Virus record (IMG/VR): IMGVR_UViG_3300007344_000067
Coordinates: 1 to 40,435 of that record
Origin: a virus
DNA: 40,435 bases
Direction: 5' to 3' (one strand)
The notes beneath the pieces are model-generated. The model made no database searches and was not told where the DNA came from. It saw only the letters and a list, made by a program, of their open reading frames with translations. Made by a program: the position numbers and the translations under genes. Below are positions 4,308-7,420 of the stretch, in pieces (within the stretch, counting starts at the first letter, position 1; the number at the start of each line of letters is the position of its first letter).

Positions 4308-4997
4308 ATGCCATTTAGCATAGATGAATTTAAGGCAACAGTAAACAAACGTCGCGGTTTTGCGAGAGCTTCAAATTTTCGTATGTTGGTGACCGGAGGA
4401 ATCCTTACACACTCTAGCGCCAGAGCTTTAGGGTTTCTTTTAAATTCTGCTCAAATTCCAGGCAGACAATTACAGACGATTGATGTTGTGACGCATGGAG
4501 TAGTAAGAAAACAACCTTATGGTATGAATGCGTATGATGATTTGACTGTTAATGTGTATTGCACGAATAAAAATTTATTCCCACGAGACCTTTTTCAAGA
4601 ATGGCAAGATTTAATTGTAAACTCAAATAATTTTAACGCATATTATTTTGATCAATATGTGTCTAGCATTGAAATTGAATCATATGATGATCGAGGTGAA
4701 GTGCAGATGACTTGTAAATTTGAAGAGGCTTATCCATTATTTGTTGGACCTCTTCAGGTAGATTGGAGTGCTGGATCTTCAATATTAAATTTACAGGTTA
4801 GCTTTGCCTATAAAAAGTGGAGATTTTTGCCAGCAGGAGGATTGCCTTTTGGTGGAAATCTTGAGATTAATTCACTGTATCCAGCTTTTGATCTTGGTGG
4901 ATTTATAGATAATAACTCTGTGGCCATTGTTGATCGAACAAGTGGGCAAATAATGGATAGAGTTAGAACAGCAGGACGTTTCCTCAGTAACATTTGA
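4308..4997 (+). CDS. 54: Baseplate tail tube initiator, gp54/gp19-like tube fold
   Basis: This 229-aa protein has the pattern of the T4 gp19 tail-tube fold: SNFRMLVTGG, an insertion with IPGRQLQTIDVVTHGVVRKQPYG, then DDLTVNVYCTNKNLFPRDLFQEWQDLI and a C-terminal strand EVQMTCKFEEAYPLFVGPLQVDWS. It is longer than gp19 (163 aa) and sits among hub and tube-base genes rather than next to a sheath gene. It is therefore more likely gp54, which starts tube polymerisation on the hub, than the tube subunit itself. AAGGGG upstream gives a good ribosome binding site. The last 50 residues (GGNLEINSLYPAFDLGGF) have no T4 counterpart that I recognise. Confidence 0.7.
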   Translation: MPFSIDEFKATVNKRRGFARASNFRMLVTGGILTHSSARALGFLLNSAQIPGRQLQTIDVVTHGVVRKQPYGMNAYDDLTVNVYCTNKNLFPRDLFQEWQDLIVNSNNFNAYYFDQYVSSIEIESYDDRGEVQMTCKFEEAYPLFVGPLQVDWSAGSSILNLQVSFAYKKWRFLPAGGLPFGGNLEINSLYPAFDLGGFIDNNSVAIVDRTSGQIMDRVRTAGRFLSNI

Positions 4998-5010: not shown

Positions 5011-5715
5011 ATGGGATTACCTACTATCAATCATCCAATTTTTAAAACAAAAATTCCTTCGACGGGAGAAGAAATAAGGTTCAGATCATTCTTGGTAAAA
5101 GAAGAAAAGATTTTAGTGACTGCGATACAATCTGATGATCCACAGCTCATGGTAGATTCTCTTATTCAGATTATCAATAACTGTCTTGTGACTGAAGGTA
5201 TAAATGTCTCAAAATTGGCTAGTTTTGATATTGAGTGGATATTTTTGAATCTTAGATTGAAGAGTGTTTCTGATGTCGTAGGGTTGACTAGAATATGCTC
5301 ATCATGTGAAAATCAATTTCCATTTGAGTTTAATCTGGCTGATGTAGAAATCCCAAAAGTGAAAAATGTAGAAAATAAAATTCAATTAACAGATGAGATT
5401 GGAGTTACTTTGAAGTATCCATCACTTAATACTATGATATTTGGGGCTACCGATCGAAACATAGACTCTACTTTTTCTATGATTGGTTCGTGTATTGATC
5501 AAATTTATGATAGTGATAAAATATATGATAGTAAGGAATATTCATCTCAAGAAATTGTAGACTGGATTTTAGAACTGCCTGGCGATAGTTTTTTAAAAGT
5601 TGAAAAATTCTTTGATTCTATTCCGAGTTTGTCACATGAGTTTGATGTAAAATGCACACATTGTTCGGATACAAATCACATCGCGCTTTCGGGGTTGAAC
5701 GATTTTTTAGACTAA
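5011..5715 (+). CDS. 26: Baseplate hub/tail assembly protein, gp26-like
   Basis: This 234-aa protein fits the T4 gp26 baseplate family (208 aa in T4): IRFRSFLVKEEKILVTAIQSDDPQLMVDSLIQIINNC, then LASFDIEWIFLNLRLKSVSD. Two CxxC pairs, C96/C99 (CSSC) and C215/C218 (CTHC), could together form a zinc ribbon. In T4 gp26 acts in hub assembly. GGAG precedes the ATG. The last codons GAT TTT TTA contain a -1 slippery heptamer, described separately. Slipping there would replace the last residue with the downstream small ORF and give a product of about 293 aa. Its position just before the tape measure is that of the gpG-type chaperone in lambda. Confidence 0.82.
   Translation: MGLPTINHPIFKTKIPSTGEEIRFRSFLVKEEKILVTAIQSDDPQLMVDSLIQIINNCLVTEGINVSKLASFDIEWIFLNLRLKSVSDVVGLTRICSSCENQFPFEFNLADVEIPKVKNVENKIQLTDEIGVTLKYPSLNTMIFGATDRNIDSTFSMIGSCIDQIYDSDKIYDSKEYSSQEIVDWILELPGDSFLKVEKFFDSIPSLSHEFDVKCTHCSDTNHIALSGLNDFLD
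5703..5709 (+). other. Candidate -1 programmed frameshift site (T TTT TTA)
   Basis: In the gp26 frame the sequence reads T TTT TTA, a canonical X XXY YYZ heptamer, two codons before the gp26 stop at 5713-5715. A -1 slip continues in AGA CTA ACC ATG and joins the small downstream ORF. The -1 frame is open only from about 5652 onward, so the heptamer lies in the 63-base window where a slip can make a fusion. GGGG at 5691-5694 upstream could act as a weak Shine-Dalgarno-like stimulator. I see no strong downstream hairpin. Confidence 0.55.
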
Positions 5716-5717
5716 CC

Positions 5718-5891
5718 ATGGCATATCAAAATATAGTAAATTACTATAGAACAAATTTTGCCATGATGCACCATCACAAGTATAGTCTGACTGAAATTGA
5801 AAATATGGCAGTATATGAAAGAGACATATATGTTTCTCTTCTTATACAATACCTAGAAAAAGTAGAAAACGAAAGAGCAAAAAACGGATAA
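5718..5891 (+). CDS. Small hub assembly ORF after gp26; likely -1 frameshift extension
   Basis: This 57-aa ORF starts MAYQNIVNYYRTNF and has a His cluster (MMHHHKYS), then two probable helices ending in EKVENERAKNG. In cyanophage genomes a short ORF in this position is labelled gp51, but it is far shorter than T4 gp51 (249 aa), so I leave the symbol empty. It begins two bases after the gp26 stop, in the -1 frame relative to gp26, and has no Shine-Dalgarno at a usable distance. It may be translated by termination-reinitiation, by -1 slippage from gp26, or both. The role inferred from position is chaperoning the tape measure protein before tube assembly. Confidence 0.65.
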   Translation: MAYQNIVNYYRTNFAMMHHHKYSLTEIENMAVYERDIYVSLLIQYLEKVENERAKNG

Positions 5892-5905: not shown

Positions 5906-7420
5906 ATGCCAAGTCAAGAAACAATACAGCGAGCTGAATTACTTTCTCAACGAATCCAACAAGGTGGTCAGTTCGTTGGAAGTGGAATCCAGAATATTGC
6001 AAATTTGCCTGGACAATTTGTAGGAGAGACTACTCTTCCTGTGCTAAATTCGCTTATCGAAAAAATGGGATCATATACCAGTGGATTGCTTGGGTTTTTA
6101 ACTAAAGACACGGTAACTGGTAAATTATCTAATAACGAAAATGTAGAGAATAAATTAGACGAATCAAACGAAACATTAGATGCAATCCAAGACAATACCG
6201 AAGAAACTGTAAACAAACTTGATGAGCTTTCCGAGGATGATCGTACAAAATTTGAAGAAATTGAAGCTGCCAGAGAGAAAATAAAGAAACCACAAAAGAA
6301 AGAAGAAGAGAAACAACAAAAAAATATTTTCAGCAATTTTCTTAGTAAGTTATTTAATTTTTTTAATGCACTTCCTACTATTTTGAAGATTGGAGGATTA
6401 TTAGCTGGGCTTTCTTTACTTAAAGATAAATTTGATGAGTTTATGGAGAATCCGATAAAGGTTAAATTAGAAGCTATAGATTTTATTGATAGTGTAAAGA
6501 CTCAGATCGTTGAACTTATGTCTGATGAAAAGATGTGGGGCAACATGCTTAAATCAGTATTTCCTAGCGACAGATTAAATGAGGTGCTAAGTCTCCTTTA
6601 TAATTTTCTCACCAGAACCTCCACGAATGTCGTTGATACATCAGTGGATATAGCTGGACGCGCCGCCGCGCGCTTCGGCACGCGCACAACCAGCAAGGCC
6701 TTGTTCGCCGGCGTTTCCGGCGCGCCCATTCCGCAGTCTCTTTCGTCGAACGTCGTAAACATGGCCGAGTGGAAAGCCAACAAGGCCAACCCATCATCTT
6801 CAAGGACATGGTTGGGTCGAGTAAAAACGGCCCGTAACTGGCTAGATAAGAAGATACCAACACGGGGCGCCGGAGGCGCCGCGTTCCGCAGCATAATTCC
6901 CACGCTCCCTATTGTAGAATTAGGAATCTCGGGGTTGAGTTATTCTAGTTCCGTAGAAGACATTGAGGCCGCCCTTGAAGCAAACATCATCACACAAGCG
7001 GAAGCTGACGAGAGAATAATGCAAGAACGACTCGTTCTTGCATCGAGAGTCGGCGCGGACGCGACGCGAATTGCTTTTTTAAAGAAAATACCTTGGCTTG
7101 GTAACTGGGCAGATAAGACATTTCTAAGACGCGCTGTGGTCGGGGCCGGGGTCCCCGAAGGAGCGGAATATGCTGTTAGGGAGTGGGGCCCCGGAGCCGG
7201 GCTGCCCCCCCTAGAAGAAGTAGTTGAAGGTGCCCTGAGGGCAGCCAACTTGGCTGAAGAAAATAGGCGGCTGTCCATGATGTCGCCCCCTCATCTGCCG
7301 GGAATTATTAATGCACCTCCGACAGTCTATCCTATTCCACAACATTCTGGTTTGAACCAGCCAGACATTCCGGTCGTTGTGGGTTCTGGATCAACTTCAA
7401 CTTCAATGGACCCACAATAA
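5906..7420 (+). CDS. Tail tape measure protein, gp29-equivalent
   Basis: This 504-aa protein is assigned by position (between gp26 and the gp48 tube cap) and composition. It has a polar helical N-terminus, a charged coiled-coil stretch at about residues 75-140 (NKLDESNETLDAIQDN through KKPQKKEEEKQQK), a hydrophobic segment at about 150-170 (ALPTILKIGGLLAGLSLL), then an Ala/Gly-rich part and a Pro-rich tail. T4 gp29 is 590 aa and sets tail length while part of the hub. If all residues were helical along the tube, 504 aa would span about 75 nm at 0.15 nm per residue, an inference only. From about residue 250 the base composition changes sharply to GC-rich. The ribosome binding site (GATGGGAT) is weak. 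Confidence 0.65.
   Translation: MPSQETIQRAELLSQRIQQGGQFVGSGIQNIANLPGQFVGETTLPVLNSLIEKMGSYTSGLLGFLTKDTVTGKLSNNENVENKLDESNETLDAIQDNTEETVNKLDELSEDDRTKFEEIEAAREKIKKPQKKEEEKQQKNIFSNFLSKLFNFFNALPTILKIGGLLAGLSLLKDKFDEFMENPIKVKLEAIDFIDSVKTQIVELMSDEKMWGNMLKSVFPSDRLNEVLSLLYNFLTRTSTNVVDTSVDIAGRAAARFGTRTTSKALFAGVSGAPIPQSLSSNVVNMAEWKANKANPSSSRTWLGRVKTARNWLDKKIPTRGAGGAAFRSIIPTLPIVELGISGLSYSSSVEDIEAALEANIITQAEADERIMQERLVLASRVGADATRIAFLKKIPWLGNWADKTFLRRAVVGAGVPEGAEYAVREWGPGAGLPPLEEVVEGALRAANLAEENRRLSMMSPPHLPGIINAPPTVYPIPQHSGLNQPDIPVVVGSGSTSTSMDPQ
6655..7230 (+). other. GC-rich island inside the tape measure gene
   Basis: By direct count 44 of 60 bases are G or C at 6661-6720 and again at 7141-7200, against 20 of 60 at 6361-6420 in the same gene. 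The island holds GC palindromes: GGCGCC at 6866-6871 and 6875-6880, an inverted repeat at 7147-7157, and GGGGCCCC at 7185-7192. The reading frame stays open. It suggests a segment of different origin or unusual codon constraint. Confidence 0.75.

Follow-up and report, generated by a model that had tools for sequence, protein, structure and literature searches.

The window (the whole 40.4-kb virus record that was analysed) contains, on its plus strand, a gene for a tail-tube-fold protein (4308..4997; phrog_45, E 4e-37) directly 5' of the gene for gp26 (5011..5715), a 234-aa protein that is the candidate for a short, gpG-like form. gp26 matches the Pfam family PF12322 (T4_baseplate) with E 3e-58 and 197.5 bits, above the curated cut-off of 24.5, and the PHROG family phrog_150 with E 5e-62. 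Close to its 3' end, a slippery heptamer, T_TTT_TTA (5703..5709), is read in the gp26 frame and followed by GAC TAA, i.e., by one codon and the zero-frame stop codon (5713..5715). No stop interrupts the -1 frame between 5646 and 5888; its stop codon is at 5889-5891, and its part from 5709 to 5891 encodes a gp51 domain of 60 aa plus the stop, which matches phrog_634, the PHROG family of gp51, 'baseplate hub assembly catalyst' (E 6e-26).

A shift into this frame at the heptamer would join 233 residues of gp26 to these 60 residues in a predicted fusion of 293 aa with the junction LNDFL-RLTMAYQ. The heptamer, the frame and the coordinates of this fusion are as given in the original prediction, which had been made from the DNA letters; the heptamers that it had also pointed out at 5589 and 7075 exist without making a fusion, the -1 frame closing after 4 and 9 codons, respectively. 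The -1 ORF of the window further matches positions 227-276 of the gp26 profile phrog_150 (282 positions), a first sign that some members of the family are natural fusions. Within the same frame, a 57-aa ORF from the ATG at 5718 (5718..5891) marks a possible but unsupported independent start of gp51.

The next gene (5906..7420, plus strand; 504 aa) is the probable tape measure gene, an assignment based on position, length and a weak match of its product to PHROG tape measure proteins (E 0.03); comparison with the tape measure protein of Cr30 revealed no similarity. The part of the gene encoding the C-terminal portion (6601-7300) is mostly 47-63% GC, compared with 24-40% in the N-terminal part, and is possibly a recombined segment.

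Frame, slippery site and register among relatives

Relatives were collected from GenBank phages and from IMG/VR by gp51 and, independently, by gp26. Queried with only the gp26 of the window, IMG/VR returned one relative, and alignment queries were needed to find more. The collection comprises 429 gp26 loci; there are 364 distinct loci that carry gp51 in the -1 frame, and 149 gp26 clusters at 70% identity and 27 at 40%.

gp51 lies in the -1 frame at 422 of the 429 gp26 loci, and T_TTT_TTN is in frame at 345 of the 364 distinct loci, at an invariant distance from the gp51 domain. At 18 further loci, all from Ackermannviridae, a T_TTY tetramer is found instead, as N_NTT_TTC or N_NTT_TTT, and a single locus, where the gp26 ORF is broken, fails the slippery-site test. 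An alignment of homologues had been proposed with the original prediction as its check, and it reveals that 363 of the 364 distinct loci with gp51 in the -1 frame have retained both this relation and the slippery site. In a first set of 87 loci, all gp51 ORFs are in the -1 frame, with T_TTT_TT(C/T/A) 81 nt before a gp51 motif. In a sample selected by gp26 rather than by gp51, T_TTT_TTC occurs at the same place in 80 of 80 loci, and gp51 is in the -1 frame in 78 of these, the other two being cut within the -1 tail by the end of the contig. When aligned to the gp51 profile, every tail (345/345) shows zero offset relative to the slip codon, while the gp26 stop is found at distances of 7 to 31 nt from the start of the heptamer, which indicates that the conserved register is that of the fusion and not that of the stop.

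The seven exceptions to the -1 frame are three contig ends, T4, STML-198, Vibrio phage K369 and Streptococcus phage GXN1. In T4 and STML-198, gene 51 is separate; in K369, a -1 tail is visible by eye, but weak. The combination that had been named as evidence against the prediction, both ORFs with no slippery site or with the second in a different frame, occurs at only one distant locus, that of GXN1.

Several loci show individual variation. In GXN1, a PF12322-like baseplate protein (1977-2726) precedes a gp51-like tail, NYSVTDIESMSISDFHYHYN, that lies in the +1 frame, an arrangement that suggests a +1 version of the frameshift in a Gram-positive phage. In the Ackermannviridae, the reduced heptamer aligns with the full one, gp51 likewise keeps to the -1 frame, and the Salmonella-type examples that were read have no early start codon before gp51. 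At five other loci (L050, L056, L059, L065 and L072), gp26 runs approximately seven codons beyond the slip, and the distance from slip to gp51 is unchanged.

Codon choice, stimulator signals and the origin of gp51

The first Phe codon of the slippery site is TTT in all 149 clusters, compared with 70% TTT in the gene bodies, and the wobble base preceding it is always T. Under the codon use of the genes themselves, the joint log10 P is -54.8 when the 149 clusters are taken as independent and still -12.0 with the 27 clusters at 40% identity; the clusters are not independent, and P values here and below are therefore indicative only. Other Phe-Phe pairs in the same genes read T_TTT_TTY in only 10 of 164 cases.

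Upstream of the slippery site, the window contains an SD-like element, CGGGG (5690..5694, plus strand), a predicted frameshift stimulator located 8 nt from the heptamer with a calculated anti-SD duplex energy of -5.7 kcal/mol. Over the 149 clusters, the anti-SD energy reaches a minimum of about -6 kcal/mol at this place, with most other upstream positions between +0.6 and -2.2. Codon usage deviates accordingly at the two codons concerned: at codon -5, GAG is used in 66 and GAA in 38 clusters, against 729:2699 in gene bodies (indicative P 1e-19), and codon -4 favours GGA/GGG (indicative P 2e-7). An SD-like frameshift stimulator in this arrangement is known from dnaX.

Downstream, a two-stem RNA hairpin is predicted at 5717..5765 of the plus strand (5717-5723 pairing with 5759-5765, and 5732-5738 with 5742-5748), starting 7 nt past the heptamer. 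Its energy of -14.9 kcal/mol corresponds to a z score of -4.68 against dinucleotide shuffles, none of 200 being as low, and of -3.69 against synonymous shuffles. For the family, a stretch of 66 nt that begins 5 nt past the heptamer was compared with synonymous-codon shuffles in 55 clusters. The mean z score was -1.50, with 17 of the 55 clusters below -2 and none above 2; four control regions gave values between -0.07 and -0.22. S-PM2 has a different strong downstream hairpin, no strong hairpin was found in the downstream region of S13, and RNAalifold on 148 ungapped downstream sequences yielded no common structure; the hairpins are therefore lineage-specific rather than one conserved fold. Taken statistically over the family, the predicted stimulators are present both upstream and downstream of the site.

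The ATG at 5718-5720 is not preceded by a Shine-Dalgarno sequence, as had been predicted for the 57-aa ORF: the calculated duplex energy is +0.3 kcal/mol, compared with -5.9 for gp26, -4.0 for the next gene and -6.6 for a gp48-like gene. An equivalent start is missing in many relatives. Within 42 nt from the slip, the -1 frame contains no ATG in 97 of the 149 clusters and no ATG, GTG or TTG in 64. Residues encoded in that same stretch are conserved family-wide, for example His 8, Leu 11 and Asn-Tyr-Tyr 13-15 of the tail; standard independent initiation therefore cannot make the whole gp51 domain in those 64 clusters.

These data bear on three alternatives to a programmed ribosomal frameshift. 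The T run could have arisen by chance, forced by the two Phe residues at the C-terminus of gp26, where the motif GLxxFF restricts the sequence to TTY TTY. The codon choice is invariant at this place only, however, and T4 and STML-198 retain Phe-Phe but encode it as TTC TTT; a chance run is contradicted by the codon data and was rejected, its probability being negligible. Sequencing error was likewise rejected, the site being conserved across hundreds of contigs. A second possibility is that two forms do exist but are produced when RNA polymerase, rather than the ribosome, slips on the T run. Runs of 7 or 8 T in 37 of the 149 clusters would be compatible with such a mechanism, but the remaining 112 have exactly six, which is short for polymerase slippage, and only 4 or 5 T are in phase in the Ackermannviridae. 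Moreover, the phase of T_TTT_TTN is fixed, and SD-like and downstream structure signals act on ribosomes, which makes transcriptional slippage a very improbable source of the longer form. An equally small chance is given to the third alternative, that gp51 arises solely as a small protein of its own, through translational coupling or reinitiation at an ATG just after the gp26 stop, the T run being incidental. Here TAACCATG in the window, an ATG within 42 nt from the slip in 52 of 149 clusters and the annotation of gp51 as a separate gene in GenBank records such as that of S-PM2 are in favour, but several other GenBank records leave the frame unannotated or truncated, the window ATG lacks a Shine-Dalgarno sequence and the 64 clusters described above have no start at all ahead of the conserved domain. 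This alternative also leaves unexplained the invariant heptamer, the fixed register and the colinearity of T4 gp51 with the predicted fusions (see below). Some free gp51 may possibly be formed by reinitiation in the third or so of clusters (52/149) that have an ATG near the gp26 stop.

T4 genes 26 and 51

In T4, genes 26 and 51 are divergent neighbours. Both T4 proteins match PF12322 (gp26, 8.8e-64; gp51, 3.9e-52), and gp51 in addition matches phrog_634 and covers positions 13-280 of phrog_150. Aligned to the predicted fusions, including FFRISMFYNNLENYYRTNFSLM, T4 gp51 shows no gap across the junction. By these matches, T4 gp26 and gp51 are paralogues. The 3' end of T4 gene 26 reads GAG TTC TTT GAG TTA CTA TAA and the corresponding part of the STML-198 gene GAA TTC TTT, which indicates that the slip has been lost with retention of the Phe-Phe pair; in the -1 frame behind T4 gp26, no gp51 was found.

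In an unrooted tree, T4-type gp51 and the frameshift type are split with 100/99 support. The T4-type gp26 proteins group together insecurely, with RB43-type gp26 placed elsewhere with weak support. In RB43-type phages, the genes for a fused gp51 and for gp26 lie in tandem, sharing a strand and flanked by gp54 and gp25, in contrast to the divergent arrangement in T4.

Judged by sequence, the frameshift is still used within the Straboviridae, in S13, in ZPAH1 and CC2 of the Emmerichvirinae and in the Schizotequatrovirus VH7D. The simplest reading of these relationships, the tree being unrooted, would be that the frameshift is ancestral and that the gene was duplicated once, one copy losing slippage and the other being fused in frame. 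In T4, gene duplication thus seems to have taken the place of the frameshift, and this would account for its being cited as an exception: a 2016 review by Atkins describes the G-T frameshift as conserved in long-tailed phages 'except T4' (PMC5009743). More broadly, a chaperone frameshift probably extends over the T4 superfamily, including cyanophages, Schizotequatrovirus, Emmerichvirinae, Ackermannviridae and others, with T4 exceptional only through its 26/51 duplication.

T4 serves as the reference for contractile phages, and it is the one named as lacking a tail-gene frameshift that is widespread elsewhere. The data point to frameshifting in its relatives and to paralogous genes for the same two products in T4 itself, which makes this a clear example of gene duplication taking over from recoding. 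If this is true, gp51, the long-unexplained 'catalyst', can be assigned a definite function as the counterpart of gpGT in T4.

The annotation of these loci would be corrected as well. The gp26 coding sequence is joined across the frameshift in none of the frameshift-type GenBank regions viewed, and the gp51 frame is wholly missing in some. It is unannotated in S13, ZPAH1, CC2, VH7D and S8, and in Melnitz-3 and OC the annotated gp51 ORF begins inside the domain.

Proposed mechanism, function and known systems

The comparative analysis, which is based on sequence, shows a conserved frame and slippery site, a fixed register, stimulator signals and homology to T4 gp51, and as comparative evidence for a programmed -1 frameshift it is very strong. 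According to the model favoured here, which is assigned a probability of roughly 0.85, ribosomes undergo a programmed -1 frameshift close to the 3' end of gene 26, and the two resulting proteins share the gp26 domain and work like gpG and gpGT. Most ribosomes would terminate at 5713-5715 and produce gp26, and a minority would slip back by one base on T_TTT_TTN and continue into gp51, resulting in the 293-aa gp26-51 fusion. Slippage would be aided by the upstream SD-like site and, in many lineages including that of the window, by a downstream RNA hairpin. The shared gp26 domain would bind the tape measure protein, and the minor long form would recruit a hub or tail-tube partner through its C-terminal gp51 domain; frameshift efficiency, stoichiometry and binding partners are inferred. 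In T4 and its close relatives, duplication would substitute for the frameshift, with gp26 as the short form and gp51 as the long form, fused in frame.

In the literature, T4 gp26 and gp51 are listed together among the hub assembly chaperones, with gp51 described as essential, as having no assigned function and as absent from the particle, and with the presence of gp26 in the T4 hub disputed (PMC3004832). PDB sequence searches returned no solved structure of gp26 or gp51. The AlphaFold model of gp26 has a pLDDT of 93.6, and its three highest-probability fold matches in the PDB are chains A and B of HK97 2OB9 (0.51 and 0.44) and 3FGX (0.25), with Foldseek E values of about 1 to 4 that are not significant. 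Both 2OB9 and 3FGX are tail assembly chaperones (PMC9603447), and the fold evidence from the model is at most suggestive of such a role for gp26. The model of T4-type gp51 has the order of elements of gp26 minus one short helix, with three additional C-terminal helices, and no chaperone fold was among the matches listed for it. From sequence, gp26 and gp26-51 are predicted to be short and extended forms of one domain, both of which T4 has as continuous proteins.

The genomic position is shared widely. The ORF after gp26/gp51 is long (at least 300 aa) in 97% of the loci with enough sequence, and in Cr30 the annotated tape measure gene is one small ORF away. A tail assembly chaperone role, with gp26 resembling lambda gpG and gp26-51 resembling gpGT, is supported by position and by T4 genetics, and weakly by fold. 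The conserved slip site and -1 frame support the original reading of gp26 and its small partner as a frameshift pair of this type.

A different function for the same products also has to be considered: the frameshift may be real, with gp26 and gp26-51 serving as assembly factors of the hub (gp5-gp27-gp29) rather than acting on the tape measure protein in the manner of gpG and gpGT. T4 gp26 and gp51 are defined through baseplate hub assembly (PMC3004832), and the fold likeness to known tail assembly chaperones is weak. The two descriptions overlap, however, because the T4 hub contains the tape measure protein gp29, and both the two-length logic and the location directly 5' of a probable tape measure gene are as in gpG/gpGT, as is the long ORF that follows in nearly all loci with enough sequence. 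A function confined to the hub is therefore considered unlikely, and the analogy with gpG/gpGT, with its presumed binding partners, best accounts for the genomic position, the two protein lengths and the genetics of T4.

Neither a frameshift between gp26 and gp51 nor the paralogy of the two T4 proteins was found described in open-access full texts, the literature covered by the search. Among known systems, the tail assembly chaperone frameshift of lambda gpG/gpGT, reportedly the work of Xu, Hendrix and Duda, has the same layout: a -1 shift on a slippery heptamer close to where the short ORF ends, two proteins with a common N-terminal domain, a position directly before the tape measure gene, which in the window is a probable one, and conservation across divergent phages. 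It differs in that gp26 belongs to another protein family by sequence (PF12322, often with Cys pairs), gp26-51 carries a gp51 extension of approximately 60 aa, a predicted SD-like stimulator lies upstream and the T4 relatives have two genes. The T4 proteins gp26 and gp51 correspond by homology to the short form and to the entire predicted fusion, respectively, but are encoded by two separate paralogous genes that involve no frameshift, the slip codon of gp26 having been lost. HK97 2OB9 and Rbstp2171 3FGX provide the highest-probability PDB fold matches of the gp26 model, in matches that are not significant by E value and with gp26 about twice as long. Finally, the -1 frameshift of Escherichia coli dnaX combines a slippery heptamer with an SD-like stimulator approximately 10 nt upstream and a structure downstream. 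The gp26 site shares this combination of heptamer, predicted upstream SD-like stimulator and predicted downstream structure, in a different gene with a different function; in dnaX, the shift leads to early termination, whereas at the gp26 site it would lead into the gp51 domain.
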